Source of the DNA: Roseateles aquatilis
GTDB taxonomy: Bacteria > Pseudomonadota > Gammaproteobacteria > Burkholderiales > Burkholderiaceae_C
NCBI RefSeq assembly: GCF_002205645.1
Contig: NZ_NIOF01000001.1
Location: forward strand, 930,001 to 994,000
Direction of reading: 5' to 3'
DNA length: 64,000 nucleotides
Each line of letters opens with the position of its first letter. The first letter of the stretch is position 1. The position numbers and the translations under genes are program-made. Under the pieces are notes generated by a model, which saw nothing but the letters and a program-made list of their open reading frames with translations, searched no databases and was not told the DNA's origin. This document shows positions 39,076 through 58,900 of this stretch, one piece after another.

Positions 39076-39124
39076 TGGTGCCGGCTATCGGATTCGAACT
39101 GATGACCTACCGCTTACAAGGCGG
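39076..39124. repeat. attL: 49-bp orphan copy of the tRNA-Thr 3' end
   Basis: This segment matches 60811-60859 base for base, including the CCA end, T arm and anticodon arm up to GGCGG, and then diverges. It lacks the 5' half of the tRNA and cannot be a working gene. Confidence 0.93.
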
Positions 39125-39200
39125 AAACACAGTTAGAGCGTCGATGCACTAAGCCCGAATTTACTGGGCGCAAGTGTTAGCACACACCAACATCAAGTCC

Positions 39201-39223
39201 GCGTTTGGTCCACGTTTGGTCTG
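39201..39223. repeat. candidate recombinase arm site, left end
   Basis: Two copies of CGTTTGGT in tandem, 12 bp apart start to start, lie 77 bp inside the left repeat. A 23-bp stretch here matches 60618-60640 at 20 positions, in the same orientation. Confidence 0.6.
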
Positions 39224-39267
39224 ATGGCTAAACCTGAGTTGAGTCACTGCACTTTAAGGAGTGCAGG

Positions 39268-40726
39268 ATGTCCACCGACACCTACGTGAAGAAGAAGGTC
39301 CTTGCCAAGGGCAAGGTGAAGTACCAAGCCCAGGTCTGGTTCCAAGGGGTGTTCTACGGCGCGAAGACGTTCGACACCGAGAAGTTGGCCAGAGAGTTCA
39401 AGGAAGCAAGTCTGCTGGCCGTCCTCCGCGGTGAGCTTCAGCCAGCTGCGGCACGGAAAGCCCAACGGCGGGTGGAAGAAGCACTGGACCTGCCGATGTC
39501 CCACTGGGCCTCTCTCTACTCTCTATATAGAGGAGGTGAGCCATGGCAAGTCTCGCCTTGCCGAATACCTGCTCGTTGGCCGTCTTTTGGCGGGTAAGAC
39601 ACTTCGCCACTTCAGCGGCCGGGACGGCGCCCGCCTTATCAAGCAGTTGGTCATCGACTGGCGGCAGGACCGTCAGCCGCGCAGCAAGAAGCCGGCCAAG
39701 GACGGTTCGCCCCCGCCTAAGCCGTTGAGAGACCAGACTCTGCGTCTGCGGTTTTACGCGCTGACGCGCATCATCGGCTTCGCAAAAGACAAGCTGCCAG
39801 CTCAAACGCCGTTCGAGACGCCGGACATGGGGGACCTGTTCGAGTTCGCACCCCCTCCAGCACACGCAGCACCGCGCACGCGTCAGCCGTCGGACGCTGA
39901 GTTCGCACTGGTGCTGACGCAACTTGGCGTGGAATCTGAACTCGGCCAGTTCCTGAGGAGCATCTACGAGACCGGCTGCCGGCTCAGCGAGGTCCGGACT
40001 GCGACCGGCGCGAACACGCTGTTCAACACCGTCGGAGACGAGGTCGTCGGCGGCCACATCACCCTTCACAAGCACAAGACGCGGAAGAAGGTCGGCGTCC
40101 GCGAGGTCCCGCTGTCGCTGTTTGCGGCGCAGATGCTCCATGACCGCAAGCTCAAGCATGGTGATGGCCTGCTGTTCCCAGAGCTCGGCGACACCGACTG
40201 GGTCTGCAAGAAGTTCGATGATGCCTGCAGGGCCGCCGGCATTGCCGACCTCCTCATCAAGGACTTCCGCCGCGCCTTTATCAACCGCAACAAGTACTGC
40301 GTTGCCCACGTTGACCTGCTCAAGGTAGTCGGACCGTCGTCTCTGCTGGACGCAAAGAGCGTTTCCCCGTCTGAGCGTGCGGTGCAAAGTGCCATCGGGC
40401 ATACCAGCATCCAGATGATGGGCGACTACTCCCACCCGGAACTCGCTCACATGTCGATGGTTTTCACGGGCACCAGCCGATGGACGCAAATCGCCAAGCT
40501 CGTCGAGAACACGCAGTCGGTTCCGACGGAAACCGGCCAAGGCACAGAGGTCGACGTTCCCGCGCTGCAGCAGCTCTTGGCCGAAACGCTCGCCAAGCTG
40601 CGCAGCGCTGGCGTCATGGGTTCACCCGTGAGCCGCTTGAGCGGCGCGGCTGGCGCCTGCCCGTCCGAGAATGCGGTGTCGCAACTCTGGCGACGTTCCG
40701 AACGCAGCGATATGCAGCGGGACTAG
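39268..40726 (+). pseudogene. int: tyrosine recombinase (integrase), split by a frameshift
   Basis: The N-terminal domain starts at the ATG 39268 (MSTDTYVKKKVLAKGKVKYQ...) and reads on to about 39530. The rest of the protein continues in the next frame (39431-40726), from about IEEVSHGKSRLAEYL. One base change in the CT/TA-rich run at 39511-39531 would join them into about 485 aa. The catalytic set is visible in the second frame: Arg in ETGCRLSEVR, Lys in HKHKTRKK, the second Arg in KDFRRAF and GHTSIQMMGDYSHPEL with the nucleophilic Tyr. It should recombine the tRNA-Thr att sites. If the shift is real the enzyme is inactive or made by frameshifting; a sequencing error is also possible. Confidence 0.8.
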
Positions 40727-40827
40727 AGGCGTCCCGTTCGCTGCCGACCAAGGTTTGCGGCAGGCGATGCCTGCAGAAAATGGACCGCACCTTGTCAGGC
40801 GCGGTCCGTGAATGTGGTCGCTATGGC

Positions 40828-41052
40828 CTATCGCTCAGTTGATTGCGCAGCTTCGGGCGATTCGAGCGCCCGAGCGTCGCCACGACCGTCTGTCCGCAAT
40901 AGCGCCAGCCGCCGCAAGTGGCGGCCAATGGTTCGGTAGCTGCCACGCCCAAGTTCGAGCCGCAAGTTGAACGGGCCAGCTACACGTCCCTGCTTTCTCA
41001 GCGCAACGGTCGCACGAATGACGTCGACCAAGCTGATGCCTCTCCTTCCCAT
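40828..41052 (-). CDS. small KfrA_N-like DNA-binding protein
   Basis: This 74-aa protein resembles the N-terminal DNA-binding domain of plasmid protein KfrA: VIRATVALRKQGRVAGPFNL followed by RLELGRGSYRTIGRHLRRL, matching the GrGS-tv--L pattern. The long coiled coil of full KfrA is absent. AGGAA lies about 7 bases before the ATG at 41050-41052. It may act as a regulator of the element, which is inference. Confidence 0.6.
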   Translation of the reverse strand: MGRRGISLVDVIRATVALRKQGRVAGPFNLRLELGRGSYRTIGRHLRRLALLRTDGRGDARALESPEAAQSTER

Positions 41053-41236
41053 AGGGGTTCCTCATTGCTGGGCGAATGCCCTGCCCGTGAGGTCTAGCCA
41101 ATGCGGCCCTACGCCCTGAAATCCGAATGCACTAGATATAGAGGCTGCGCGCGACCAGCGGATTTGGTAATCGTCTTTGCTTGCCGCGCCAGGCGCCCGC
41201 TGCAAACAATGCGCGCACCACAGAACTGGAGCAAAC

Positions 41237-41656
41237 ATGTCGCAGACCACATCGCCGCATCGACCTGGCATCCGCGTCGTCATGCACGTCAGTCCCGCCG
41301 GTTACGTCGCCGGCATCCTGGCAGCACAGCGTCGCAAGCAGTCCTTCGGCGAGTTCCTCGACGGCGCCATCTCGTCCGCCTGCGCCACCGACCAAGATAG
41401 CGCCGACGAGCTCCTACCTTGGTCGCCTCACGCGATGGACCTCTTTCTGCAACTGGCAGACACGCTGCCTGAAGCCCTACGCGGCCACTGGAAAGTCCTG
41501 TACGCCAAGGTGCTCGAGGAGCCGGACCTGTGGGTGACGCCCCAGGCAACAGTCGGTGACCATGAGGCCGGAGACTTCTCGCCTGACTGGCATATCAATG
41601 AAGCTGCCCTGCGCAAGGCTTGGCCGCGGTTGGTGAGCAGCGTTTTCCTGTGCTGA
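41237..41656 (+). CDS. hypothetical protein of the element
   Basis: This 139-aa protein is soluble and matches no family I know. It has no signal peptide or membrane segment. GGAG at 41228-41231 supports the ATG at 41237, giving MSQTTSPHRPGIRVVMHVS. It is convergent with the next gene. Confidence 0.6.
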   Translation: MSQTTSPHRPGIRVVMHVSPAGYVAGILAAQRRKQSFGEFLDGAISSACATDQDSADELLPWSPHAMDLFLQLADTLPEALRGHWKVLYAKVLEEPDLWVTPQATVGDHEAGDFSPDWHINEAALRKAWPRLVSSVFLC

Positions 41657-41697
41657 GCCCAATCCAATTTCAACAGTGAAACTCGGGCGGCGCCCCG

Positions 41698-42432
41698 TCA
41701 GCGCGCCTTCGTCTTGCGGCTCGTCGGACCGCCTCGGCGGCCGGTCATCAGCCCAGCTGACTTGCAGGCGGCTTCGAAAGCATTGAAAGCCTTAACCCGC
41801 AACGCCAGCGTCATTTCCAACAACTCGGCGACAGCGGGGTCCTGATAGCCGCGGCTTCCAGCTCGCCGGGCCGTCAGACGATGGCCAGCGGACGCCAACC
41901 GCTCTGCGTCGTCACGCACGGCAACGCAGGCTGATTCCAATGCAGCGATGGCTTCGACGAGCGGGTGCCCCCGACGGGTCTCGATGTCCTTCGCCACCTC
42001 TGCCTGTATTTGCGAGCGAAGCTGCGTAGCCAGCTCAGCACGCAGTTGAAGCTCGAGCTGAGCGCGCTCTTCGGAAACGCGGCGGTCGCGGTCAGCACGG
42101 TACTGCTCCACAGTCTTCTGCGTCCGAGCCCAGCTGCCGTGTTCCATCAGCCACGCACGGATGTCCTGGATATCAGCGGCACAAAGCTCGAAAGGGCGGT
42201 CGCCCAGCATCACCGGCTTGACTGTCACCCCATGGCCATCGTCGCCAGGGCCGATTCGCTCAACACCTTCAAGACGGCGCGGGTCAAGGTGCGAGGAAAA
42301 GCTCCCTAGATAAATGGACATCGTGCCCCTCTCACATCCGGCTGCCGCCGCCTCGGCCTTGTTGAGGTACTTCTGCCCCCGCAGCGTGACGGTGCTCCTG
42401 CCGGGTGCAGCCTTGATAACAAATCGCTTCAT
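41698..42432 (-). CDS. hypothetical protein with a coiled-coil middle
   Basis: This 244-aa protein has a basic N-terminal segment (MKRFVIKAAPGRSTVTLRGQ), a Glu/Arg/Gln/Leu-rich region at about residues 110-170 that should form a coiled coil, and a basic C-terminal tail (GRRGGPTSRKTKAR). No family is recognised. AAGGAAC lies upstream of the ATG at 42430-42432. DNA binding is possible given the basic ends, but unproven. Confidence 0.6.
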   Translation of the reverse strand: MKRFVIKAAPGRSTVTLRGQKYLNKAEAAAAGCERGTMSIYLGSFSSHLDPRRLEGVERIGPGDDGHGVTVKPVMLGDRPFELCAADIQDIRAWLMEHGSWARTQKTVEQYRADRDRRVSEERAQLELQLRAELATQLRSQIQAEVAKDIETRRGHPLVEAIAALESACVAVRDDAERLASAGHRLTARRAGSRGYQDPAVAELLEMTLALRVKAFNAFEAACKSAGLMTGRRGGPTSRKTKAR

Positions 42433-42639
42433 CGTCTTGTTCCTTGTTCGATACAGCTTCGTGTCTGCGCGCGAGCGCATCGACAAGGTGTAGCCAAGCA
42501 GCGTTTAGTCCGAACAGCAGCCGGCGACCTGCCGGAAATCCACTCGCAGCTACAAGTGATGTCCATTCGCAGCGACGCCATACTCACCGCGCAGATACAA
42601 GGAGCGACGCCGCGCGAACACACATGCTGTAGCCGCGCG

Positions 42640-43262
42640 GAGAGCTTGTCGTCGCCTCGCGGCGACGACCATGTAGCAGCGCGGAGTTCGCAGTGCATTC
42701 ACGCGAGTTCTTGCCCCCGACGTCCAGGAGGGGACTGATGTGCGCCCCCGAACGGGGGGCGGCCCGCCTCCAGGCGGGCCGCCATCGCGAGGTCCACGCC
42801 GCGTCGAGCTTCGCCTCGACCAAGTGGACCGGTGGGCCCCTAGGCCCACGCGATGCGCGGGGGAGCCGCGAAGGACAGGAGGCCGCGGGCTCGGACGAGG
42901 CACAGCCTCGCCTAGACCGAGGGTGAGTGCCGAGTGGGGGTCGAAGACCCGGCGGTCCGCAGTTTTCCTGGAGAGAAGACGGCTGCGGGAACCCCCGCAA
43001 TCCGTCTCGCCCGAAGGGCCCGCTACGGGGTCCCCGCTTTTTGAGAAGTCCGCGCAGCGGGCTGAACAAAAAGATGGGGGCGGGACCGATGGCGAGACCA
43101 AGCGACTTCGGCGGCCTTAAGGCCGGCGATGGCGCGCAGCCCCTCTCATTCCTGCGAGCGGCAGCAAGCAGGAATGAAGGGGGGTTTGGGGGGGTTCCCG
43201 CAGGCGGCACCGCCGCCGAAGGACCGCCCGACGTGAAGCACTCGCACCCTAGTGCGAGAGAC
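42640..43262 (+). other. hairpin-packed non-coding region (structured RNA, oriT or origin candidate)
   Basis: The gap 42433-43382 has no credible gene; open frames in it are GC-rich Pro/Arg/Gly artefacts. From 42648 to 43258 I find at least ten short perfect stems: 42648-42669, 42758-42783 (11 bp), 42791-42830 with an inner GTCGAG/CTCGAC stem, 42832-42849, 42896-42910, 42938-42950, 42977-43007 (nested), a CGGCCTTAAGGCCG stem near 43110, 43147-43176 and 43241-43258. Several have GAA or CCTA loops. The density suggests a folded RNA, or single-strand DNA as at a transfer or replication origin. It points toward the Replic_Relax gene. The strand is assumed from that. Confidence 0.55.
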
Positions 43263-43382
43263 AAAACCAAGCGACAGCGCAGTGTTTTGACGGTGCTGGT
43301 TCTGCTCGAGAACCGGAAGGCACGCAAGTTCGGGCACATGTGGGGGGTGTCGCGGGGCGGTGTTTATACGCAGGACAACCTC

Positions 43383-44438
43383 ATGGAGAACCTGATGCAC
43401 ACCGCCCCACCGCCCGTCACGCAGCACATACCAAACAGGGAGCGCTTTCTCATCGTCGACGCACTACTGGCCAGACGGCACTACCTGCTGGAAGCGCTTG
43501 AGCTGCTGATGCGATACGGCACGCTACGCGTACAGGGCCTCGCGTTCGGGCTTTTCCCAAACCGCAGCCAGCCGGCAGCTCTGGCAGCCGCGCAGCGCGT
43601 TGTCGCGAACGCAGTCCATCGCGGCTTCATGGTCAGCGCCGACGACGCGGCCAGCCGATTCCGCTACTACGCACTCAGCGCGGCCGGCGCCCGCTTTATC
43701 CGCGACGAAGGTGGCACCGACACCGCGGCGCCAACGACCTACCTGTTGAGGAAGCTCACCCGCGCCCACCATCGCGAATGGACCAACATCTGCTCCATTG
43801 CGGCGAGACGGCGTGGCTTGGAAAGCTATGCTGAGACCGACTATCTCGGCCAGTCCTTCCGGGCCGACCTGAACGAGCGCTTCGGACACATTCCCGACGC
43901 ACTCACCTTCGCAGACCTCGGCAACCGACCCACCGTCGTATGGCATGAGATTGAGCTGTCGCGCAGGTCCATGCGCAATCTCCAGCTCAGGCCGCTCAAG
44001 CCCGACGAACAGGATAACTCCGGCATCGGCAAGTGGCGTCAGCTGCTGCACACGCTGCGCCAACGATGCGCGCTTACCCACCAAGGCATCGACCACCGGC
44101 TGATGCTGGTGGTGCATTGCGCCTCGAGCACGCTGCTCAGCATCCTGGCCAAGCACCTCGGCCTGTATGCTGAGCAGCAGCGGCTCCCCTGCCACGGCGG
44201 CCTGCATTTCACGGGCGGCGAGCCAGCCCCTGCGCAGGCGACGGCCAATTGGGCGAGCTTCGCACTGCCATTCGAATCACGGGGCGCCGGCATGCTCGAA
44301 GTGCGGCTCTACCGGCTGCCCGAGGGCGGCGTAGACCCCGGTAAGGTCTGGCACGACAGCGACAGCTTTCCGTGGCAGAACGTCGATGAGGGCTTCGAGC
44401 TCGATGAAGGCTACAACGAACAATTCATGGTGCCGTAG
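43383..44438 (+). CDS. Replic_Relax-family protein
   Basis: This 351-aa protein resembles the replication-relaxation family found on plasmids and integrative elements. It has a winged-helix-like N-terminal part (RFLIVDALLARRHYLLEALE, LRVQGLAFGLFPNRSQPAAL), YYALSAAGARFI and a later region with TVVWHEIELSRRSMRNLQL. Family members are linked to plasmid replication or mobilisation, but their chemistry is not settled. The ATG at 43383 follows CAGGAC; the frame is open far upstream through the structured region, which I do not count as coding. The last 14 bp overlap the convergent ATPase gene. Confidence 0.6.
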   Translation: MENLMHTAPPPVTQHIPNRERFLIVDALLARRHYLLEALELLMRYGTLRVQGLAFGLFPNRSQPAALAAAQRVVANAVHRGFMVSADDAASRFRYYALSAAGARFIRDEGGTDTAAPTTYLLRKLTRAHHREWTNICSIAARRRGLESYAETDYLGQSFRADLNERFGHIPDALTFADLGNRPTVVWHEIELSRRSMRNLQLRPLKPDEQDNSGIGKWRQLLHTLRQRCALTHQGIDHRLMLVVHCASSTLLSILAKHLGLYAEQQRLPCHGGLHFTGGEPAPAQATANWASFALPFESRGAGMLEVRLYRLPEGGVDPGKVWHDSDSFPWQNVDEGFELDEGYNEQFMVP

Positions 44439-46419
44439 GCGCCGCATCATCGGACGCCTGGCCCTCAGAAAAGTCGCCCACCAAATATGGAATGAGGGGC
44501 GGGTTGTTCGGGTCACCATTGACGAGATGGCGGCTGCTTATCGGAAGGTCTATGTCGTCAGGCACGGCATTGAACTCGTTGTCGATGATGACGAACTGCG
44601 TCTCCACCAACTCGCCTACAGCGAGTTCGTAGACCAGACGAAAGAAAGCCGCAATCACCTCGGGGTTCTCGACCGAGCTGACGTTTTTGGTCGGTGTGTC
44701 AATGACAAGTATGGGCGGCAACCTGGCATCGCCGGCTCGGGCGCAGACCCGATGCAAGGCCAACGCGTAGCAGGTCTTGAACAGCGCTTTCATTCCGCCG
44801 CTACCAGCGTTGTCGAATGAAAGCACCACAAGGGCCTCATTCACCCCCAAAGGAATGCGCGGATAGAAGGTAGCCGGGTCAATCTCCACACGATAGTTTG
44901 CTCGGACATCTGGAAACTTGGCTCGCACCAGACAGTCGAGAAAAAGCTCGCCCAGAAGGTCAACATTCTTTCGGTCGTTGAAGGCTGACTTCTTCGCCGT
45001 CTCCAGCTTGGCCCGCAACTCAGCCTCGTCAATCTTCAATGCCTCTGCCTGCGCCTGCTGCTCTTGAAGCACGTCCGGTAGCTTTCGATACTTCAGCATC
45101 GCATCAAGCCGCTGCTCCAACGTGGCTACGGCACGCTCGTGCTGCAATGCTTGAGAGAGGAACGCCGAGTCATACTCTTTCAGCCTGACCTCTAGAGAGC
45201 GGTCTGCCGCATTTCGCGCCGTCGCAATCTCAACGGCGCGACGCTGAATGGCGCGCTTCTGAGCACGCATGCGGGCCAAGGTTTCCTTCAGCTCGGCCTG
45301 ACGGGCGCGCAGGTCCTCGTTGACGACTGATTCGCCAAGTGCGCCGGCTGCATCTGTGATGTGCTCAGGCTGCCCGCAAACCATGCAGAGTCCAGCCTCT
45401 CGAGCCGGGAGGGTTTGGGTGCATCGAGGACACGAGGAAAAGTCCACGCCACCGAGAACCATCCGCGCGGATGCGGTTCGCTGGAAGCGAACCGACAACA
45501 TCTGCAACTCATTTGCGTGGCGCTCAAGCTCTCCGATGCGGATGTCGATGTCCGAAGAGGCCTGCTCAAGCGCAATCTGTTCTTGAGCAAGACGTCGCGC
45601 ATGGTCCCGCAGTTCCTCTGCAGCATGCGGCGCCGGCGCACGTTGCAGCCTCGCGACCTGTGCGGCCTCGCGCGCGCGGTCAATTTCTGCCTTGATAGAT
45701 TCAATCTTCGCGTCGTAGGCGTTGATGTCGTCAAGGCCGACATCTATTAGCGCCTTCGCAAGCGCCTGAGCTCCAGACAGCAGGCCCAAGCGTTGCTCAC
45801 GGACCTCTTGGAGGCGCGATTCCAGCTCGGCGACCTGTTCAGTGCGGTATCCAAGAACATATCGCAAAGCATCAACGCTTTTTGCACGGATAGGGTAGTT
45901 GTCGGAGTCCAACCGGAAGAAGACGTTGTCCATCCCCTCCTGGTCGAGATAACAAAATCGGAATAGGTCCCGGAAGCTCAAGCGCTCGAGACGCTCGTCG
46001 GGCGCGCCCTTGCGCCGACGGACGTAAGGTGGCTCCTCTTTCGCAAGATAGAAAATCAGGTCGGACAACACCACGACACCCAGGTTGGGCAGCACTTCGT
46101 TAGTCCCGGTCCGTGCGGGGATGAGCACCTGCAAGGTCTCATCCCCCTCCTGCCAAGCCGCCATCACCTGATTCGAATCCCTGTCACGATGCAACGTCAC
46201 AGGGACGTCATTGACAGACATCTCCAAAGCCGCCGACACCATTTCTGCCTGCAGTGCAGGCGTCCAGGCGTAACTGCCACCAAGGCAAAAGTCGATGAGT
46301 CGCCCAATGCTGGATTTGCCGGACCCGATGGGGCCAAAAAAGTAGACGACACCAGGTAGGTCGATTCGCTCAATCGACTTGTGGAGCGAAAGATGCAATT
46401 TTTTTAGCGCAAGTCTCAT
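44425..46419 (-). CDS. ABC-three-component system: SMC/Rad50-like ATPase with zinc hook
   Basis: This 664-aa protein has a Walker A motif at residues 29-36 (GPIGSGKSS), long coiled coils, a zinc-hook-like pair of CxxC motifs (Cys330/333 and Cys345/348) in the middle, and a C-terminal ATPase half with SFDNAGSGGMKALFKTCYAL and the Walker-B-like ILVIDTPTKNVSSVENP. This architecture is that of the ATPase of ABC-3C defence systems. AGAGGA lies upstream of the ATG at 46417-46419, which overlaps the stop of the middle component (ATGA). It probably senses invasion and licenses the nuclease encoded upstream. Confidence 0.8.
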   Translation of the reverse strand: MRLALKKLHLSLHKSIERIDLPGVVYFFGPIGSGKSSIGRLIDFCLGGSYAWTPALQAEMVSAALEMSVNDVPVTLHRDRDSNQVMAAWQEGDETLQVLIPARTGTNEVLPNLGVVVLSDLIFYLAKEEPPYVRRRKGAPDERLERLSFRDLFRFCYLDQEGMDNVFFRLDSDNYPIRAKSVDALRYVLGYRTEQVAELESRLQEVREQRLGLLSGAQALAKALIDVGLDDINAYDAKIESIKAEIDRAREAAQVARLQRAPAPHAAEELRDHARRLAQEQIALEQASSDIDIRIGELERHANELQMLSVRFQRTASARMVLGGVDFSSCPRCTQTLPAREAGLCMVCGQPEHITDAAGALGESVVNEDLRARQAELKETLARMRAQKRAIQRRAVEIATARNAADRSLEVRLKEYDSAFLSQALQHERAVATLEQRLDAMLKYRKLPDVLQEQQAQAEALKIDEAELRAKLETAKKSAFNDRKNVDLLGELFLDCLVRAKFPDVRANYRVEIDPATFYPRIPLGVNEALVVLSFDNAGSGGMKALFKTCYALALHRVCARAGDARLPPILVIDTPTKNVSSVENPEVIAAFFRLVYELAVGELVETQFVIIDNEFNAVPDDIDLPISSRHLVNGDPNNPPLIPYLVGDFSEGQASDDAAPTAP

Positions 46420-46970
46420 ATGGCGATTTCCTCTCCCCACTTCATGTCGGTCAGCTCTGGGAACGTGGCGTAGACAAAATTCTTTAAATCGGACCCGCTG
46501 CGATTGCCGAAATTCTTCGCCACGAGCTTCGCGCGCGCCGCAAGGTTCTCAAGCGGCTCTTGGTCGGCAAGTGCCGTAGCCGCGAGCTGTCCCTCCGGCG
46601 TAGGCCACAGTTGAACGGTCTTGCCTTTGACATCGACGGCGACCAGTCCCCTGGCCGCCATCAAAGCGACCCATCGGCGATACCGGTGGTCCCACTGACC
46701 GTATCGGAACCGAACCATCCTGCTTTCGATAGTCGTTCTTTCAAACTCGGCCACATCCGCCTTCGCTGGGTCCTTCCCCGCCGCTGTTAGAGCGCGCTCA
46801 AGGCAATTGGGATAGCGCAGCAGGAAGTCCAGCTTTGCCAGCTTTGTTAGACCCTCGACCGGACGGCTCTTGTCGCCCGCATGCGCGGCCATCAGCAGTA
46901 GCAGCCGAGCCATATGAAGGTTGTCGTCTCGCTCGGTTGCAGCGAGCGCGCGAGCAAGTTCAAGCGCCAT
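46416..46970 (-). CDS. ABC-three-component system: middle component
   Basis: This 184-aa protein is helical and has a probable winged helix (LTKLAKLDFLLRYPNCLERA at about 39-58, then RYRRWVALMAARGLVAVD). Size, fold and position between the nuclease and ATPase genes match ABC-3C middle components, which are thought to bridge the ATPase and the effector. The ATG at 46968-46970 lies inside the end of the nuclease gene (11-bp overlap). Recognition rests mainly on context. Confidence 0.7.
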   Translation of the reverse strand: MALELARALAATERDDNLHMARLLLLMAAHAGDKSRPVEGLTKLAKLDFLLRYPNCLERALTAAGKDPAKADVAEFERTTIESRMVRFRYGQWDHRYRRWVALMAARGLVAVDVKGKTVQLWPTPEGQLAATALADQEPLENLAARAKLVAKNFGNRSGSDLKNFVYATFPELTDMKWGEEIAI

Positions 46971-48258
46971 CTTGGGCCTCCTCTTCCAGCGGGGTACCCC
47001 ACGCGAACTTGCATTCGCCCGACAGCATGCCGGCAATGCCCATCAACGTGTCCTTCGGCTCGCGGCACACACGCTCGGGCTCCTCCTTCGCAAGGCTGTC
47101 CATCCGTTGCAGGATTTGCTTGTAAATCGCAAGCCCGCGTGTTTTCTCATCGGCATGGTCAAAGGCCATCGCCTCGACGTCCTTGCACTCGACCAACACG
47201 GTGCTGACAAGTTGGTTGGCAATAGCGTCGAAGCCATCTGGCTCCAGCAAGGCGCGCTCCATCAAACGCTGGTCTGCCGAGTCCATGCGCATGCGCAAAG
47301 GCTCAAACTGACTGCCCAGGTAGGCATTCCGCATCTTCCGGTTGAGCACATCGGCTCGACCAGCCGGGGCACCAATTTCTATGCCCGCGCCGCTACCGAC
47401 AAACCGGAAGGCTGGCTGCCGAACCCGGGTTATCACCTCAGCCGCTGACTCTGGGGTAATGCATTTCCCCCGAATCGCAACGTCAGGTTTACCGTTTGTG
47501 GCGAGATACGCCACAGCGCCGTCTATCCCATCCGCACGCAGCCTACAGGCTGCTTGAACAAGCCCTATGAGCTCGTCCCTCAAACGACAGCACGAAACTG
47601 TTGTAAGAACTCCGCAGCCGGGCAGCTTCGGGACAATCGAAGCCGCGAACGTATCGTCATACCCGCGAAGGACTGGCCCTTGCGCGAATTTGAGCTTTCG
47701 CAGGACTTGAAACAGGACCACCGCATCGCCACCGGTCTTACCTACCAGCCCGGCGAAGGCCGTTTTGTACGGTTCCTCCAAGGCGGAGTGGTTCGAGGCT
47801 CGAGAGCAGCACTGGACTAGGCGGTCAGGACTGGCCGCGAGCGAGTCGTCCCTTTTCGTCGTTGCCGCCGGCACATATGGCGCAGCGTTCGAGACGAACT
47901 CGTAGCCGTCAATGGCGGCTCCATACATCTTCTCGAACACGCAGAAACGAAGGACGGATTCGACCAATGCGTCGTCACTCCACCGCCAGCGCGCGTTCTC
48001 GCGGCTGTCAGTCTTGACTTGGACAGCGACGTAGCGCCCGGTCTGCAACTCCAGCAGATAGTCATCGTGATGCTCGCACCAAAGGGCACGTATGGCGCGC
48101 GCGCTGGTCAGGCTCTGCGCCAGTAGCCACACGCCTATGGCCCATTGGTAGCGAAACCGCTCCTGAGTCTCGTCTCCTCGGTCCGCAGGCGCCGTGGCAA
48201 GTCCATCGACCTGTTCCGGCAATCCAAGTGGCAAGGGTTGGTTTTTTTTCAGTCCCAT
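46960..48258 (-). CDS. ABC-three-component system: Cap4/DUF4297-like nuclease effector
   Basis: This 432-aa protein has an N-terminal restriction-type nuclease fold: GDETQERFRYQWAIGVWLLA, then DDYLLELQTGRYVAVQVKTD, where the acidic residues and the QVK form a PD-(D/E)xK-type site as in DUF4297/Cap4 endonucleases. The C-terminal 230 residues would be the sensing or docking part. GGAGG in front of the ATG at 48256-48258 fixes the start. It is the first gene of a tightly overlapping three-gene operon, so it is the likely effector that degrades DNA on infection. Confidence 0.75.
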   Translation of the reverse strand: MGLKKNQPLPLGLPEQVDGLATAPADRGDETQERFRYQWAIGVWLLAQSLTSARAIRALWCEHHDDYLLELQTGRYVAVQVKTDSRENARWRWSDDALVESVLRFCVFEKMYGAAIDGYEFVSNAAPYVPAATTKRDDSLAASPDRLVQCCSRASNHSALEEPYKTAFAGLVGKTGGDAVVLFQVLRKLKFAQGPVLRGYDDTFAASIVPKLPGCGVLTTVSCCRLRDELIGLVQAACRLRADGIDGAVAYLATNGKPDVAIRGKCITPESAAEVITRVRQPAFRFVGSGAGIEIGAPAGRADVLNRKMRNAYLGSQFEPLRMRMDSADQRLMERALLEPDGFDAIANQLVSTVLVECKDVEAMAFDHADEKTRGLAIYKQILQRMDSLAKEEPERVCREPKDTLMGIAGMLSGECKFAWGTPLEEEAQDGA

Positions 48259-48308
48259 CTGCCCTCCTCCCAAAAAATTCGCCCATCAGGGCGCGACAAG
48301 CTACATCG

Positions 48309-51300
48309 TCAAGAGACCACCCAATCCGCCGAAAGCGACTCCGCCTGCCTCAACACGGTTTCCGTCGCTTCTTCCTGTCGGTCCGGCGGGTACTTGTAGC
48401 GGCGCAGCAGCGTCTTCACCATCACGCGCAGTTTGGCCCGCACGGTCTCGCGCTTGGCCCAGTCCACGGTGACCGACTTGCGCAGGCTCTGGGTCAACTC
48501 GACGGCTATCTTCTTCAGCGTCTCATCGCCCAAGCCGCGGACTGCGGCCTCGTTCATGGCCAGCGCGTCATAGAAGGCCATCTCGTCATGGTTGAGCCCC
48601 AGGCTCTCACCGCGTTGCGCGGCGGCCTGGAACTTCTTGGCCATCTCGATGAGTTCTTCGATGACCTGCGCCGTCTCGATGGCACGGTTGCGGTAGCGGG
48701 TCAGGCTCTGCTGCAGCAGCTCTGAGAACTTAGCGCTCTGCACCACGTTGGTCTTGAAGCGCGACTTGATTTCGCCCTTCAGCAGGCGCTCCAGCAACTC
48801 GACGGCCAGGTTGCGCTCCTTCATGTGGCGCACGTCTTCCAGGAACTCGTTGGACAGCACGCCGATGTCCGGCCGCTTCAAGCCGGCGGCCGAGAAAATG
48901 TCGATGACCTCGTCGCTGACAACCGCTCGACTGATGATTTGCCGCAGCGCGTGTTCCTTCTGCTCGTCGGTCAGCTTCTTGTCGGTGCCCGCGTGCTTGG
49001 TCAGCGCGGCCTTCACCGCTTGCAGGAAGGCCAGTTCGTCGCGATAGGCCAGTGCCTCGTCCAGAGTGCAGCACAGCGCGAACGCCTTGCTGGCGGCGAG
49101 CACCGTGTCGGCGAAGCGCTTCTTTCCATCGTCCAGCCCTAGCACATGGTTGGCCACGGCCGGCAGCAGCTGCCAGGCCCTGCTGCGGAAGTCGGTGTAC
49201 TCGACGCCATGCAGCATGTCGTGCAGCACGTCCATCTGCTCCTGCAGCACGGCCAGCGCCTCATGCGCGTCGATGGTCGGCTTGCCGCGCCCGTGGGCCT
49301 GGGTGTAATCGGCCAGGGCAGCCTTCAGCTCGTTGGCGATACCGATGTAGTCCACCACCAAGCCGCCGGGCTTGTCCTTGAACACACGGTTTACCCGTGC
49401 AATAGCCTGCATCAGGTTGTGGCCGCGCATGGGCTTGTCCACGTACATCGTGTGCAGGCAAGGCGCGTCGAAGCCGGTGAGCCACATGTCGCGGACGATG
49501 ACCAGCTTGAACGGGTCGGTCGGATTCTTGAAGCGCGTCTCCAGGCGCTTGCGCACGTCCTTGGGGTAGATGTGCGGCTTGAGCAGCGCCTTGTCCGAGG
49601 CCGAGCCGGTCATCACTACCTTGATGGCGCCCTGCATCGGGTCATCACTGTGCCAGTCGGGCCGCAGCGCGACGATGGCGTTGTAGAGGTGCACGCAGAT
49701 GTCGCGGCTCATCGCCACGACCATCGCCTTGCCATCCATGGCCGTCAGGCGGTTCTCAAAGTGACTCACGATGTCTGCGGCCACCTTCTGGACTCGCGGC
49801 GGCGCGCCAACCAGTTGCTCCAGCGCTGCCCAGCGACGCAGCTTGGCCACCTTGGCGGCGTCGCCTTCTTCGTCCTCGGTCAGCTCATCCACCTCGCTGT
49901 CGAGCTGGGTGACATCGGCTTCCTTCAGCTCCAGGCGAGCTAACCGGCTCTCGTAGTAGATAGGCACGGTGGCGCCGTCGCGCACCGCCTGCTCGATGTC
50001 GTAGATGTGGACGTAATCGCCGAACACGGCGCGCGTGTCGCGGTCGCTCAGCGAAACCGGCGTGCCGGTGAAGGCAACAAAGGTGGCGCCAGGCAGCGCG
50101 TCGCGCAGGTGCTGGGCGTAGCCATAGCGCACGGCGCTGGTGGCCTGGTAGTCGGCACGCGGCTCCGCCGCCTGCAGCGCCTGGCCGTCGTTGGCCACCG
50201 GCTCGGCCGACTTGCCCTTGCCGTTGACCAGCCGCGCCTCGAAACCGTACTGCGTGCGGTGCGCCTCGTCACAGATGACGACGATGTTGCGACGGTCGGA
50301 GAGCACAGGGAACGTGTCCTCGTCCTCGCCTGGCGTGAACTTCTGGATGGTCGTGAAGATGATGCCGCCCGAGGGGCGGTTGGCGAGCAGCCGGCGTAGC
50401 TCGGGCCGGGTGTCGGCCTGGGCCGGCGTCTCGCGGAGCATCTCGCTGGCAGCGGCGAACACGCCGAATAGCTGGTTGTCCAGGTCGTTGCGGTCGGTCA
50501 TCACCAGCAGCGTCGGGTTGCCCATGTCCGGGTGCGCCATCAACGCTCCGGCCAGGCATGTCATTTCGATGCTCTTGCCGGCGCCCTGCGTATGCCAGAC
50601 GACGCCGCCCTTGCGCGTGCCGCCCGGCGCCGAGGCCACCAACACGCTCTGAACCACCGCCCGCACCGCGTGGAACTGGTGATAGCCGGCCACCTTCTTG
50701 ACCAGCCGGCCGTCATCCTCGAACAGCACGAAGTGGCGCAGGTACTCCAGCAGCAACTCGCGCTGACACAGACCCAACACCAGAGTCTCCAACTCGCGCA
50801 TCGCGCCGAGCGGGTCGGTGGCCACGCCGTCGATGGTGCGCCAGGCCATGAAGCGCTCGCGGTCACTGGTCAACGAGCCCATGCGCGCCTGGATGCCGTC
50901 GCTGATGACTTGAAGCACGTTGGCGTGGAACAGGTCGGGGATGTCTTGCTGGTAGGTCTGGAGCTGGTTCCACGCAGCCCAGATGTCGGCGTCTTCGTCG
51001 CCCGGGTTCTTCAGCTCGAACAGCACCAGCGGCAGGCCGTTGACGAACAGCAGCACATCGGGCCGGCGGGTCTGCTTCGGCCCCTGCACGCTGAACTGGT
51101 TGACGGCCAGCCAATCGTTGGCCGCCACGTCGGCGAAGTCCAGCAACCGCACCCTGTCGCCGCGTGTCTCGCCGTCCTTCTGGAACTCTACTGGAACGCC
51201 ATCCACCAGCCAGCGATGGACTTGGCGGTTGGCGCTGACCAGACCCGGGACGCTTGGATTGAGCACGCGGCGCAGCGCGTCGTCTCGGGTGCCAAGCGGG

Positions 51301-51494
51301 ATGTGCGGGTTCAGCCGCGCGATGGCCTCGCGCAGCCGGCCGGCCAGCACCACCTCGCGGTGGCTGGCGCGGTCGGTGCCTGGGGTCTTGGCATCCGGCG
51401 GGGAGATGTCGGGACCGTGGGCGGCGGACCAACCCAGGCCAGCTAGCCATTCGAGCGCGGCTTGTTCTACGTGGTCTTCCGTTATCGCGCTCAT
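48309..51494 (-). CDS. hsdR: type I restriction enzyme, R subunit
   Basis: This 1061-aa protein has the N-terminal PD-ExK nuclease site (RRPDVLLF and [12 protein letters not shown]), helicase motif I in [12 protein letters not shown], motif [25 protein letters not shown] and motif VI region [18 protein letters not shown]. It translocates DNA with ATP and cuts it when HsdM/HsdS meet an unmethylated site. The start is the ATG at 51492-51494, 8 bp after the SIR2 gene. It is the last gene of the operon. Confidence 0.95.
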
Positions 51495-51502
51495 CGTGCC
51501 CC

Positions 51503-53263
51503 CTACCACCCCCAACGACCGTTCAGCTTGGCAGCCCAAGCTTCGAATGCCGCGATTGCCTGCTGCACTTCCAAAACCGTGTCTCCAAATAAACGCGAAG
51601 TCACGTATGGGGACTGAGCACCATGCAACTCAAGGCTGCCCTTGATTCGTTGAACCACTCTTTCACGGTTGGAGGTTCTATAGCCATAGCAACCCGGCGG
51701 ATGGAACTCTTTGTTGAACACCGGTGGGCAGAGCTTGTGGTTCGCTATTGCAAGAACAACTTCAACCCAATCGAATCGAAGCTCGAAGTCTTTCCGCGAG
51801 TCAAATTCGGCGCCGAATCGGTCCCATAGAAGGTCGGCCAACCAGTCGTTCAACGGCGCATGCCGCTTCTCCTTCCCTTCGAGCAACTGTCCCCATCGCT
51901 GGGGGTCGTCGCTCAGCAAGCAAAAGGGCGGTGCAACATCTACGGCGAGAACGGGCTGCCGGCTCGGCGCTTCAAGCTCGTTGTTCAGAAGAGTGGCAAC
52001 AACATCACAGCGTCCATCGAATGACGCACCCAGCAGGGCTGAGTAGGTCATGAGCGTGACCGGATACCCCTGATAGGCAAGCCACAACGTCAGGCCCTGA
52101 GACGCCTTCATGCTGAACAGGCGCCGCTGGGCAGCCGCCAGAAAGGCGACGGCCTGAGGCGTCCCCCATCGTCCAATTTCGAACGAGAGGGCTGAGAGCG
52201 TGTGACAAATGCCTTCGTATTGCCGGACTCGCGCCGTAACCGAGGCGGTGTTCACGTCCACAGAATTTTCAGCAAGGCGTGCTGATGTCAACTCTTTGCC
52301 AACCTGTCGACTCTCGTCAGCAATCAGGTCGGCCAGCCGGATGCGAGACGAATCCGGCTCGGCGAGATATCGCTTGCAGGCCGCGACAGCTGCCTTGACA
52401 GAAATAGGATGAGGTTGCGAAAACTGCTCGATTGCTCTGACCTTTTGCTCCAAGCCGTCAAAGAAGGTATCAGCGTCAGCAATGGAAATGTGCTGCCCTC
52501 CGCGTCGAGCCAACAACGCGGCAGCGCGTTCGCCCGGTTCTCCGCGCGCCGCGAAGAAGGTGGAGTAGCGGCGGCTCGGCGCTCGCTCAATTGCAGCGCG
52601 CAGTGCGTCGTCCCAGTCAGCCGACCAGCCGCAAACAATCAATCCGAACTCGTCGAATACACGGTCTAGGAGGCGGTCCAGCCTGCCGTCATACGTCGCG
52701 AGCTCTTCCGGCGTATTCAGGATGCGGGTGTCGAGATAGTCACCATGCAGTTTCACAACGCAGGCCTTGATGTGTGCAAGCGGCACTGCCCCCTCAATCT
52801 GGTCAGGTGTGCTGATTACGGTGGGCGCCACACCGACATCCTCCAGCGCTCGCTCCATCAAGCGGTCGAAATTGGTGGTCAAGACAACGCGAATTTGTCC
52901 ACTCGCCATCAGATTTGCGATGGCGCGGTGGGCCTTGGTCGGCGCCTTGGCACCTTCCTTCCGCTCTTCGTCAGACGGCTCGAAATACGTGCGAAGAAGC
53001 TGCTGTCGTTCACTCGGCGTTTTGGCCAATGCGTCCAGCAGTTGCGAATACCCCGGCTGAACTCCGTATGTCGCCTCGTACCAAGCAGCAGGGTCGGGCT
53101 CGCAGTCAGCGCCCTGAGCGCCCGCCAGCTTGCGGACCAAGTCAAGAACCACTTCCCAGCCTGTCGGAATCCGCGCCGCTCGCGAAACGCCGGAACCTAA
53201 AAGTAGCGCGTACACGCCAGGGCTCGACTGGAGGGCAAACGCTAGCGAAACCTCGGGCGTCAT
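51503..53263 (-). CDS. SIR2-domain protein inside the hsd operon
   Basis: This 586-aa protein has an N-terminal SIR2-like domain: [33 protein letters not shown] with Asn131, and [14 protein letters not shown] with His173, the usual catalytic His/Asn pair of bacterial NAD+-consuming SIR2 defence proteins. The C-terminal 330 residues are a mostly helical region I do not recognise and are the likely sensor. The start ATG (53261-53263) overlaps the hsdS stop by 4 bp (ATGA), and hsdR follows after 8 bp, so it is translated as part of the restriction operon. NAD+ depletion and abortive infection is the expected but unproven role. Confidence 0.85.
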
Positions 53264-54598
53264 GCGGGCACCTCCTCGGCACGGACTTCCGCATTCGGCA
53301 CAGTCAGCGTTCCCGCGATGAGACGAGGAAGCACAGCGTCGCGAACTTCTTCCAAGGTCTTTGTGTGCGCATCGTTCAACGTGATTCGCCTTTCCAAAGG
53401 GCCCACCAGTTCCTCGAAGCGCTTCAGCACTTCGGGAACAGGACTCAGGAGCGGCAATGCTTCCAAGATGCCAGTGTTCAGGTTCGGCATGGTTGCGCCG
53501 ACGGCATGACGCTGCAGCCACTCGATGGACAGCGGGTATGCCAATGCCTGAGACAGGAAGGCCGGCGATTGAGATTGCGGCCCCGGACGGACCAACAAGC
53601 AGCCCGTGCCACATAGCCAGCCTACTTCCCGCTCCGACACCGTCGCATGCCTGCCCACATCGCCACGTCTGCTAAACACGATGTCGCCGATTTCGAGCTT
53701 GTGCTTTGAGAGGCGGTCGGCATTGGACTGGGAAACGCGCGCGATACGGTCCTCCGAAACGCGGCGCCCTTTCATATCCTGTGGCATGACTACGGGGATG
53801 CCCGCATCGAGGTAATCGCTCGCGTGCAGTTGGCTGCCGAATGGACCTGTTTGTATCCAGCCGCCGGCCGCCTTGCACAGTGCACCGAGGCTCGACGCCG
53901 CCCACCCCTTCGGAATCAACCCCAGCGCCGATGCCTCGAACTCGGCAGGGAACAGCGCCGCCGTGGCGGCGTCCATGCCTTCGGGCTCGCGGCCCTCGGC
54001 CTTGGTGCGCACCGGGTCGAAGTCGATGAACCAGCTCTTGAAGAGGGCTTGGGCGATGGACTCGAGACTGGTGTTGGTTTGGCGCAAGAGGTCGATGCGA
54101 CGGTCAAGTTCCCGTAGTACTTCGACGGTCTCGTCTTGATACGAACGCTCAGGCAGCAATAGCTCGAATCCGCCAAGTTGTTTCGCGTTGGCGCCAGGCT
54201 GAGCCGAGCCGCCGCGAACGGCCATGACGTAGTCCCGAAATCGCTGCGTTCGAAGCTGATACCCGACAAAAAATGGGTTTGCCTTTTTCGGGTCAACTCG
54301 AAATCTAATCAAGTAGGACGCAAAGACAGCAGGGCCGTCGAGTGCCCAGACCTGAGCATTCTCACCAGTCGAGTTTCCCGTGCGAGCGACAACGATGTCC
54401 CCAATCTGAAGCGCATACTTCTTCGCAGACTCCGCAGACGCGGTGCAGTATGGAACATTAGACCAGTCGAATCGACCTCCCTGAATGTCGGTAATGCGCA
54501 GGAATCGTGGCCCGACGGGTGCAGTCGTTGCGCTCTCTGTGTAGCCGTATGCGACATCGGAACAGACCCCGGCGAGCGCGAGAGCCGAGAGTTCTCCG

Positions 54599-54609
<11 letters not shown>
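53260..54609 (-). CDS. hsdS: type I restriction-modification specificity subunit
   Basis: This 449-aa subunit reads the DNA target. It has two target-recognition domains (about residues 15-170 and 230-410) separated by the conserved spacer [20 protein letters not shown], and the second domain contains [15 protein letters not shown] as the first has [16 protein letters not shown]. The recognised sequence cannot be predicted here. The start at 54607-54609 overlaps the hsdM end by 11 bp. Confidence 0.93.
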
Positions 54610-56191
<1,582 letters not shown>

Positions 56192-56243
56192 TCCGTCGTC
56201 TTGCTTGTTCTTTGCTATGGACGCGGCTCCCTGTTCAAGCCTG

Positions 56244-56444
56244 CTAGGTCGATTTGCGTGACCTGACTGGCTTGCTGGTTGGAGCCGGCGTCGCGCCGAT
56301 GCCATGCGCTTTGCAGTAGTCCAGCACCATGACCTCGACCATGGTGGCCAGGCTGCGCCGCTCCTGCTCAGCCGCGGCGACCAAGGCGGCCTTCACGTCC
56401 GGCGGGACGCGAATGCTGACGACTTCGGTTTTCGTGACGGGCAA
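56244..56444 (-). CDS. ribbon-helix-helix (Arc/CopG-like) protein
   Basis: This 66-aa protein has a ribbon-helix-helix pattern: [20 protein letters not shown] followed by [20 protein letters not shown]. The start is a TTG (56442-56444), supported by AGGAG seven bases upstream. It lies 52 bp upstream of hsdM on the same strand, so it may regulate the restriction operon so that methylation comes first. That role is inference. Confidence 0.7.
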
Positions 56445-56653
56445 GAGACGGCTCCTGTGCGCAAAACGCTAGCGCTTTGCAGGAGTATGGACGAAGCTTG
56501 CCTGCAGGACTCGCGGGCCTTCCCTGACTGCTGTCATCGCCCAGCTGAAGCGGCGACGGCCTGATGGTTCGCGGCCGCGCGACTTCCACAACGTGCGCTG
56601 AAGGCGGTTCAGGCTGACTGAGGACCAGCTTTCGCTTCCTCGCCCGACCGGCG

Positions 56654-57037
56654 TCACCAGTTTTGCCGTGCAGCAACCGAGACGCGCGCCGCGACGAATG
56701 GATTGACCAGCATCGGACCAGGATGCAGGCGGTCGTAAGCGCCCTCAAGGACCTCGAGCCGCCAGAGGATTTCTGGCAGGGACGCCCCACGCTGATGAAG
56801 ATTCAGAACCAGCCGAAGCACGTCCGGCCACGTTGCCTCTGTCAAGCCGGCCACGCCGGTCACCGCGACGAGCAAGTCCCCGTCGTTGACCTGGCCGCCA
56901 AGTCGCATGTAGCGCTTGGCGGCGTACGCTCTCAACAGCTTGGCAGCCGGCGAGAGGCGAGGCTCGATGCTGGCGGAAAGGATAGCGGGCGCATCAGCTT
57001 CGGCGGCGACGGGGATGGGTTGGAGGTCGAATGTCAT
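56654..57037 (-). CDS. hypothetical protein of the element
   Basis: This 127-aa protein is soluble and helical in its second half (DVLRLVLNLHQRGASLPEIL). No family is recognised. The ATG at 57035-57037 gives MTFDLQPIPV but has only a weak Shine-Dalgarno. It sits upstream of the RHH gene and downstream of a region with TTCACA repeats. Confidence 0.5.
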   Translation of the reverse strand: MTFDLQPIPVAAEADAPAILSASIEPRLSPAAKLLRAYAAKRYMRLGGQVNDGDLLVAVTGVAGLTEATWPDVLRLVLNLHQRGASLPEILWRLEVLEGAYDRLHPGPMLVNPFVAARVSVAARQNW

Positions 57038-57472
57038 CTCAAGTAAACAGTTGGAACTAGAAGGAAGGTGACGCGCATCACTGACCCGCACTGTGCCCAT
57101 CGACGTTTGACCGCGCGACCGCTATTTGGTTGGGTTTGTGGTCGCGTTCACACCTCGCCCTGACAATCGTTCGAAACATGTGCGTGGGCTCACACTTTTG
57201 AAAATTCGGGTGTGAATGCGTTCACATCGTTGGCCGCCCGGCCCCTCCTCTCCGCACCTCTCCACCCCTGCCAGCCCGCCACGGTCCCGACATCCCGAGA
57301 CATGCGCTCCCCCGATGCCGATGAGCCCCGTCTCGCTGGCCGCGCTTGATGGAATTTCTGTTCTTTGGCTTCGCACCAGGAGTTCCTCGAAACCGGCAGA
57401 CGCCGCGGCGCGCCCCGAACACCCCGGCATTGCCACCACCCAGATGTCGGGACGGACTTCGACATAGGCCGC
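57038..57472. other. intergenic region with TTCACA/TGTGAA repeats
   Basis: This 435-bp gap contains no supported gene. Between 57144 and 57230 there are two near-identical GCGTTCACA(C/T)C copies (57144 and 57218), an inverted GGTGTGAA (57209-57216) and a related CTCACACT (57189). Such a cluster fits an operator or iterons for the neighbouring replication-type protein. The remaining 240 bp show nothing I can assign. Confidence 0.45.
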
Positions 57473-58900
57473 TCAGCCCTTCAGGTAGCCGGCGACGGTG
57501 CTGCGCCCAACGCTGAGTGCGCACGCGATGGCGGACTGGCTCAGGCCCTGTACCCTGAGCTCGCGCGCCTGGTGGCGCTTGTCCGCCGACTGCTGAAGGT
57601 AGGCCACGCGCTCGATGGCTCCGGCCGCGCGGCGGGCTGCGCGATGCCGCTCCGTGTTGCGGCGCCGGGTTTCGTCGGCGGGCAGGATGGTGGCGAGCTG
57701 CCGCGCCTCTTCGTCGGTGATGCCCAGCCGGTCGACCAGGGTCGCGTTCTTGAACCAGTAGCACGGGTCCCGGGATTTGCCCTCGTACTCGACCATCTCT
57801 CCGCGAGCCGACGCCTCGGCGCGCGCAATGACGGCGCTGACGCAGGAGCGCACCTCTGCCGCTTGCCAGTCCGGCGCGAAGACGCTGGCGGCCAGGGTAT
57901 GGACTTCCTCTCGCAGATTTCGCACCAGCCGGGACTGGGCCAGGAAGCAGGCAGCCAGGAAAACAAAGGTGTTTCGCTGCCCGGCGGGCAGGCCATTGCC
58001 ATGACCGCGCAAGCTGGCCAGGGTGCGGAGGTCTTCCAGGCGGTCCCAGGCCAGTTGGGACGGGATGAGAGGGCGAGCCGATGCCTTGGCCAGCCCTCCG
58101 GCCGCTAGGCCGCCGGGCAGGACGACGAGCTTGCTGCGAACGGCCTCGCGGGCCTTCTGTTCACGGGCATCCTGCGCGCGCTGGGCATGGCGTGCAGCTC
58201 GCAATTCCGCGAGCTCGCGTCTGTCAAAGGGCAACAAGTGCTCAGCCAGAATGTCGAAGTCATAGCCAACCACGCCGGACGCCAACCGCTTACCACCCTG
58301 GGTGGGCGTCGTCGCACGGTGCAGCACGCGAATAAGCTCGCCCGAGCGGGAACTGTGAGAGCCCTCCAGGCGCAGCAGCTGCGTCGCGCCGAGCGCCGCA
58401 TCGTCCGCGCCAAAGTCCTTGAGCGCCGCGTTCAGCGCACGCTGGACCGCCGACCATCGCATCACGCCCGCTCTCGGCATGGCATCGGTCAGCAGCCATT
58501 TGGCCTGCAGGCCGCGCCCTGAGTAGACGACGACCGATGGCTCGGGCAGTTGGCGCTGCGAGCAGGCATAGAGCAGCTCTTCGAGTTGAGCCTCAGGTGC
58601 CAGGCCCTGCAAGCGCTCGACCTTGTAGGTGTCGAGGTCGGAGAAGGTCATTGGCATGCGCGCGAGGCTCACCAGCCGCCGATTGGGTTGGTGGAAAACG
58701 CCGACCGAGATGTAGCGGTCGGCCTGACCCAGATGGGCAGGCAAGGCGTCGGCCAACTGCGCCAGTTGGACCACGGTCTGGTTTCGCCCCGCCACGCGCT
58801 CGCGGCTGAACAGGCTCACGAAGCCGCGCTGGGACGGGTCGTGATAGAGGAGGGGCTCGGGTTCATCGAACCAAAGCGCGCGTTGGGCAAGGGCGGCCAT
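57473..58900 (-). CDS. replication/primase-like protein with C-terminal helix-turn-helix
   Basis: This 475-aa protein has a central part resembling primase or RepB-type replication proteins (PSVVVYSGRGLQAKWLLTDA, then GAdAALGATQLLRLEGSHSS) and ends in a helix-turn-helix of resolvase or sigma type (RVQGLSQSAIACALSVGRST). GGAGA precedes the ATG at 58898-58900. On an integrative element it could copy the excised circle. The match is by eye and the metal ligands of a primase are not all placed, so the activity is tentative. Confidence 0.6.
   Translation of the reverse strand: MAALAQRALWFDEPEPLLYHDPSQRGFVSLFSRERVAGRNQTVVQLAQLADALPAHLGQADRYISVGVFHQPNRRLVSLARMPMTFSDLDTYKVERLQGLAPEAQLEELLYACSQRQLPEPSVVVYSGRGLQAKWLLTDAMPRAGVMRWSAVQRALNAALKDFGADDAALGATQLLRLEGSHSSRSGELIRVLHRATTPTQGGKRLASGVVGYDFDILAEHLLPFDRRELAELRAARHAQRAQDAREQKAREAVRSKLVVLPGGLAAGGLAKASARPLIPSQLAWDRLEDLRTLASLRGHGNGLPAGQRNTFVFLAACFLAQSRLVRNLREEVHTLAASVFAPDWQAAEVRSCVSAVIARAEASARGEMVEYEGKSRDPCYWFKNATLVDRLGITDEEARQLATILPADETRRRNTERHRAARRAAGAIERVAYLQQSADKRHQARELRVQGLSQSAIACALSVGRSTVAGYLKG

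Follow-up and report, generated by a model that had tools for sequence, protein, structure and literature searches.

A hairpin-rich region beside a MOB_C relaxase-type gene, and its relatives in Burkholderiales: a candidate large structured RNA of mobilisation modules

The window analysed here, a 64-kb stretch of the Roseateles aquatilis genome, contains an integrative element bounded by identical 49-bp repeats (39076-39124 and 60811-60859), which are copies of the 3' part of tRNA-Thr(TGT); the tRNA-Thr gene itself lies at 60811-60886. Between the repeats are a tyrosine integrase, a divergent frame, the hairpin region studied here, a Replic_Relax-type gene, defence genes and a primase-like protein. 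An earlier sequence-only reading had likewise placed the hairpins on an integrative element. The features around the hairpin region are as follows.

39076..60859, strand not assigned: integrative element from attL to attR, about 21.8 kb, in tRNA-Thr(TGT) (identical 49-bp repeats)
41698..42432, minus: divergent frame of 244 aa from ATG 42432 (262 aa from TTG 42486), belonging to no family (ORF list, family searches)
42590..43262, plus: structured noncoding region, the hairpin array (hairpin count, fold)
43364..43370, plus: TTATACG, a possible diverged form of the GCTANAC box (sequence)
43383..44438, plus: Replic_Relax / MOB_C relaxase-type gene, ATG 43383, with AGGA at 43372-43375 (ORF list, relatives)

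The protein encoded at 43383..44438 matched no Pfam or NCBIfam family, PF13814 included, and the name Replic_Relax is owed to its relatives, at about 22-34% identity, and not to a match of its own. When the genomes were searched with a query starting at 43326, 19 codons before the likely ATG, relatives of 27-34% identity turned up in 13 of the 399 genomes searched in the family and in 4 of the 399 searched in the order (its own genome being counted in both), and a profile of eight proteins matched in 26 of 399 genomes. Protein alignment A5 has 14 members, of which 7 matched PF13814 at E up to 0.1 (the best at 5e-7), the window member not being among them; A5 consists of the window and 13 of 29 named loci, with L068 and L071 excluded for stops in the stretch used and L074 dropped with them. 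The P, D and E residues of a PD...E motif, of the PD-(D/E)XK type, were invariant in the alignments containing the window protein. In the literature, PF13814 is listed as the MobC relaxase class (PMC5357655), MOB_C enzymes are described as related to PD-(D/E)XK nucleases, and TraX of pAD1 has a winged helix and recognises repeats that lie some 70-120 bp away from nic (PMC12857230); the latter source and PMC9299015 state that no covalent intermediate has been observed for MOB_C relaxases. Related-locus searches with the window protein in genome contigs and viral contigs were unproductive, as was alignment A1 in viral contigs, and tblastn in plasmids gave nothing useful. One sequence search of the PDB returned no match and another only matches with E of 0.14 and worse. 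Near the relaxase-type gene, a GCTA(T/C/G)AC (GCTANAC-type) box was present in 34 of 56 loci versus 154 of 1872 control tiles. There was no exact match in the window, where TTATACG is the candidate. Either a nick site or part of a promoter is conceivable as its role.

The hairpin array of the window is real. In the 711-nt stretch 42590-43300, nine perfect hairpins (stem of at least 6 bp, loop of 3-8) were found, versus 1.75 ± 1.28 expected from 500 dinucleotide shuffles, none of which exceeded six. The RNA fold of this stretch was -397.5 kcal/mol (z -8.75), a value equalled by none of 20 shuffles. The excess described earlier therefore stands, although the figure of at least ten perfect stems is reached only with stems shorter than 6 bp. 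Nested stems, runs of six and seven G and recurring loops are all present in the sequence, CCTA occurring twice on 7-bp stems, and the GAA loops sit on shorter stems such as GGGTC-GAA-GACCC. What had been called a 600-bp gene-free stretch is indeed noncoding but longer, running from the divergent frame to the Replic_Relax-type gene (about 42433-43382). The individual features, all on the plus strand, are listed below; classes I and II are the groups of relatives defined further on.

42648..42669, plus: hairpin with 9-bp stem and loop TCGC (hairpin scan)
42715..42733, plus: CCCC/GGGG stem around a CGTCCAG motif (42721-42727) (motif as in relatives, pairing by eye)
42758..42783, plus: hairpin with 11-bp stem and loop TCCA (hairpin scan)
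42783..42855, plus: three-way junction, outer stem CATCGCG/CGCGATG around 42791-42830 and 42832-42849 (fold, sequence)
42832..42849, plus: hairpin GTGGGCC-CCTA-GGCCCAC, counterpart of class II hairpin b (hairpin scan, loop count, covariance model)
42859..42867, plus: GGGGGAGCC, motif conserved in class II (comparison with relatives, covariance model)
42906..42922, plus: CCTCG-CCTAGAC-CGAGG, possible counterpart of class II hairpin c (covariance model, sequence)
42934..42950, plus: GTGGGGGTCGAAGACCC, counterpart of class II hairpin d (comparison with relatives, covariance model)
42983..42996, plus: 5' arm of a 14-bp long-range stem, CTGCGGGAACCCCC, for which a local hairpin at 42984-42999 competes (stem pattern search)
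43179..43194, plus: G-rich tract of G6 (43179-43184), TTT and G7 (43188-43194), its 3' end within the long-range stem arm (sequence)
43190..43203, plus: 3' arm of the 14-bp long-range stem, GGGGGTTCCCGCAG (stem pattern search)
43241..43258, plus: hairpin CTCGCAC-CCTA-GTGCGAG (hairpin scan, loop count)

The loop TCCA is not among the enriched loops described below, and two further TCCA hairpins lie elsewhere in the window. Hairpin density is insufficient as proof, because another part of the window, at about 26.8-27.7 kb and inside an Ala-rich coding frame, equals or exceeds it with 9-10 hairpins per tile; density as the sole evidence was accordingly rejected. G.U pairs account for just 9 of the 242 in the minimum free energy fold of the hairpin region, and the fold is good on either strand, so that the window by itself does not discriminate between RNA and DNA. 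A promoter scan found none.

A conserved noncoding block was found upstream of many relaxase-type genes of Burkholderiales relatives, and those loci that match a profile of it are termed class I. The profile (14 sequences, 708 positions) was covered over at least 655 positions in 24 of 29 named loci; the match was partial in L072 and absent from four, one of which has only 231 nt of upstream DNA. Carriers of class I include Thiomonas delicata DSM 16361 and Polaromonas sp. C04. In an alignment of 29 class I sequences of 663-781 nt (mean identity 61%), the consensus fold has 62 pairs in 7 helices, one of which joins segments 169-273 nt apart, and 95.4% of cells are paired, a figure favoured by the derivation of the structure from the same alignment. 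Two-sided changes occurred in 39 of the 62 pairs versus 21.3 in shuffles (none of 500 shuffles was as good), and the covariation score was 0.359, whereas shuffles gave 0.107 and sliding the structure never gave more than 0.073. The class I fold is thus kept by compensatory change. A protein-coding origin was rejected because the longest stop-free frames of the 29 sequences differ in strand and position, one sequence having no such frame above 93 aa, and because the stems covary. Plasmids and phages held no useful blastn match to a class I region. Dropped from the set as repeats were L035 (= L034) and L050, L056, L057, L059, L062, L067 and L075-L077 (one locus, two ids), together with one of L109/L044 (97% alike over 944 nt), one of L115/L053 (same place), L123 and L124 (odd or partial frames), L072 (partial match) and L060 (231 nt upstream). 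At L055:3934-4038 and L037:565-670 the 5' end of the element occurs once more, about 1 kb upstream of the full copy, and in L064 the class I element has a DUF5906 protein nearby.

Class II relatives have no match to the class I profile, except L115, and the two classes have hairpin loops in common. In 53 loci of both classes, the window excluded, hairpins with the loop GTCCA were found 37 times upstream (30 loci) and never in 547 kb elsewhere; the corresponding counts were 24 (17 loci) versus 4 for CCCA and 9 (7 loci) versus 1 for CCTA. Seven more loops, among them GCGA, ACCG, ACGT and CCCAA, passed the same enrichment threshold. With one mismatch allowed and the window included, at least one loop hairpin was present in 43 of 56 loci versus 30 of 690 control tiles, and at least two in 28 of 56 versus 2 of 690; none was present in the remaining 13 loci. 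Fixed loops (GUCCA, CCCA and CCUA in RNA letters) therefore recur on varying stems in the relatives. For the class II core, aligned from 11 loci without the window (alignment A4; L137, L116, L117, L118, L122 and L138 left out), two-sided changes were seen in all 12 of 12 pairs, with a covariation of 0.998 versus 0.224. Homologous segments, compensatory stem changes and linkage to Replic_Relax genes, which the sequence-only reading had named as its tests, were thus all found among the relatives.

In one pair of loci the class II element (70-71 bits; L120:952-1095 and L121:690-833, both minus) lies about 5 kb from the relaxase-type gene and about 720 nt before a 607-aa protein that has no Pfam family. 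This distance indicates that the element can stand as a separate module. In the group's third locus (L119, L177) no model match exceeded 10.3 bits. A reverse transcriptase frame (10238-10999) occurs at the L120 locus, and L116 apparently has a tandem duplication, about 302 nt apart, of some of the hairpin array, at 861 to 478 nt upstream of its gene match.

The window region is very probably a diverged member of class II. This assignment is based on the loop hairpins, the motif order, the long-range stem and a modest covariance-model match in the expected place and on the expected strand. Both CCTA hairpins of the 64-kb window lie inside the region; the region has no perfect GTCCA hairpin, only the CGTCCAG motif at 42721-42727, and outside it the window has five hairpins whose loops are others of the enriched set (GCGA, ACCG). 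The order of motifs is equal in the window and the relatives: a CCYA hairpin, GGGGGAGCC, a second CCYA motif, GTGGGGG..GAAG..CCC and CGGGNAAC. The long-range CGGGNA stem, a pattern picked after inspection of the window and its relatives, has 14 bp in the window and is present in 10 of 17 class II-like relatives versus 1 of 358 and 0 of 69 control tiles; its arms are 193 nt apart in the window versus 40-90 in the relatives.

Covariance model R1, which was built without the window, gave its best window match at 42832-42953 on the plus strand (17.4 bits, E 0.038), which ranked first also in the unfiltered search, and a second at 43043-43172 (15.0 bits). Genome-wide, the window match is not listed at E up to 1, and an unexamined place elsewhere scores 25.2. 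Over 697 kb, loci outside the training set scored 71.0, 70.3, 48.6, 32.3, 26.5 and 21.9 bits, and one apparently false match, at 18.5 bits, outscored the window. The model had no match in L117 and L138, two of the six class II-like loci outside the training set, and gave 15.7-20.9 bits on the correct strand inside 5 of 30 class I regions. Neither blastn nor sequence HMMs linked the window to its relatives, and no close relative of the window was found: at E up to 10, nhmmer with 8 class II sequences gave nothing in the window region, which, like L044 and L049, was also unmatched by the class I nucleotide HMM, and blastn of the region gave no useful match in plasmids and only short pieces among 299 family genomes. 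The earlier proposal of a transfer or replication origin or an element-borne noncoding RNA thus has its support in the relatives, and extends to the window through the loop hairpins, motif order, long-range stem and modest model match. A second, clear class II element in the window's own genome (L113, contig C46:1065-1207, minus, 105.7 bits), itself part of the model's training set, lies near a contig end and adjoins a relaxase-type frame with one TGA.

The conservation is strand-specific. In 37 relatives the reverse-complement loops showed no enrichment, with 1 in 44 kb of upstream DNA and 17 in the 374 kb outside it, and this enrichment in one orientation only points to a single strand of plus sense. 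RNase P of the same bacterial family (27 of 30 loci; L162, L165 and L173 left out) served as the RNA control. In the ordinary consensus fold, observed/expected was 0.52 for G.T (RNase P 0.43) and 0.14 for A.C (RNase P 0.11), and the consensus energy was -104.3 on the plus and -85.0 on the minus strand (RNase P -117.2 and -88.2). Other mismatches were tolerated more than in RNase P (0.25 versus 0.11), and the G.T share of non-Watson-Crick cells was 0.37 versus 0.60, in an alignment whose lower identity (61% versus 81%) adds noise. With G.U switched off, G.T stood at 0.27 versus 0.24 for other mismatches (RNase P 0.30 versus 0.11), and the internal mismatches of 125 loop-anchored hairpins comprised 24 G.T, 25 A.G, 11 G.G and 3 A.C, with 21 G.T cells at one stem position. 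The reading of the G.U-free fold as showing that G.T is not favoured is no longer decisive, given the G.T and A.C comparison with RNase P in the ordinary fold. We read the element as a single strand of plus sense, for which RNA is somewhat more likely than DNA.

We propose, at a probability of about 0.5, that mobilisation modules contain a hitherto undescribed class of large structured nucleic acid to which the window region belongs as a diverged member, and that it is most likely an RNA made from the relaxase-gene strand. The main rival to the RNA reading is an origin of transfer (oriT), in which the plus strand would fold while single-stranded in conjugative transfer, the relaxase or its helpers would read the hairpins and the GCTANAC box would be a nick or binding site. 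This is a possibility of some weight: a relaxase-type gene is adjacent in many loci, PF13814 corresponds to the MobC relaxases (PMC5357655), MOB_C enzymes are of the PD-(D/E)XK kind with TraX repeats lying near nic (PMC12857230), the box is enriched near the gene, and the mismatch data of the G.U-free fold and of the loop-anchored hairpins also speak for it. However, a multi-branched fold of 663-781 nt far exceeds the pAD1 distances, the G.T/A.C bias and strand energies are near the RNase P values, the L120/L121 element is about 5 kb away from the relaxase-type gene, and the window contains no exact copy of the box.

A long 5' leader, controlling translation or transcription of the relaxase-type gene as an attenuator or switch, would account for the position of the element on the same strand and directly upstream of the gene in many loci, and for the terminator-like hairpin at 43016-43033. 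It is nevertheless unlikely: the terminator count of the region is 2, near the chance value of 0.9 ± 1.0, and a pure leader is weakened by L120/L121, where the element does not precede the relaxase-type gene. Least probable, and by a wide measure improbable, is that the window holds chance palindromes of GC-rich noncoding DNA, with the real conserved element in relatives only. The weak model score, the lack of a blastn or HMM match and the equally hairpin-dense GC-rich part of the window are what such palindromes would leave, but they would hardly give nine hairpins where 1.75 are expected, nor the two CCTA hairpins, the 14-bp stem and the best model match all in the expected place, strand and order.

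On the RNA reading, the element would be transcribed from the relaxase-gene strand of integrative elements that carry MOB_C-type (Replic_Relax) relaxase genes, and would serve mobilisation, which is the simplest reading since the element is linked to a MOB_C-type gene on such elements. One element-encoded factor, putatively the relaxase or a partner, might recognise the fixed loops, and the folded strand could then assemble or license the transfer complex, by analogy with SGI1, whose self-encoded sgm-sRNA, next to oriT, is essential for the island's mobilisation (PMC9299015). A more specific version is offered tentatively and is rather doubtful: the large RNA (663-781 nt in class I) may be a working part of an RNA-dependent relaxosome, in which a protein encoded by the element binds in several copies to repeated GUCCA- and CCYA-loop hairpins, thereby licensing the transfer of defence-carrying islands across Burkholderiales.

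At gathering score, Rfam 15 matched only tRNAs in the window and the relatives tested, in line with the earlier reading, which recognised no described RNA class. At E up to 1 one region of each class drew no match at all, and the window region two sub-threshold matches. Rfam contains the families OLE, GOLLD and ROOL, and some large ornate RNAs of this group are linked to mobile elements. The present element resembles them in size, many helices and conserved unpaired motifs but, unlike them, has no Rfam match at gathering scores.

Like sgm-sRNA, a primary transcript of 650-700 bases, the element would be an RNA of an integrative mobilizable element beside a mobilisation gene and oriT; by contrast, SGI1 has the tyrosine-recombinase-like relaxase MpsA and belongs to another host group, and the likeness is one of description, not sequence (PMC9299015). 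MOB_C oriT regions (pAD1 TraX, CloDF13 MobC) similarly combine noncoding DNA, a MOB_C-type relaxase and repeats away from the nick, whereas the oriT of pAD1 has five direct repeats in place of the covarying fixed-loop hairpins and the 663-781-nt class I fold (PMC12857230). The STAXI motif is likewise structured and near integrases and genes for DNA-handling proteins, but is a pseudoknot repeated two or three times, and the present element has no Rfam match (PMC2864571). The class is not described in the literature searched, including the accessible parts of PMC2864571, PMC11109978 and PMC8632094, which is not proof of its being unpublished. As a family the element looks new, given this and the Rfam 15 result, while large folded RNAs and oriTs are known kinds. 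The selection and processing of DNA by elements that use MOB_C relaxases is little understood, and a large conserved fold in their modules is a concrete part for deletion, probing and pull-down; a new RNA family could be built directly from the alignments.

The fold may also bear on how phage defence spreads, the window element itself carrying phage defence genes. Its defence cargo (44425-48273 and 48309-56305, minus) includes a SIR2 protein with a match to PDC-S65, genes for type I restriction and a Lamassu-like set, LmuB/LmuC/LmuA. Among those element frames that were searched, a subset of all frames, none was for type IV secretion, and 'mobilizable' is therefore a status that we infer for this element. 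A primase-like protein with a weak PriCT_1 match (57473-58900, minus) could serve replication of the excised element. Judging from the ORF list, the integrase is apparently split over two frames (39268-39597 and 39431-40726, plus) near 39510-39540, which seems to reflect a frameshift in the element or in the assembly. Terminator-like inverted repeats, read from the sequence, adjoin both ends of the element at 39018-39065 and 60724-60765.
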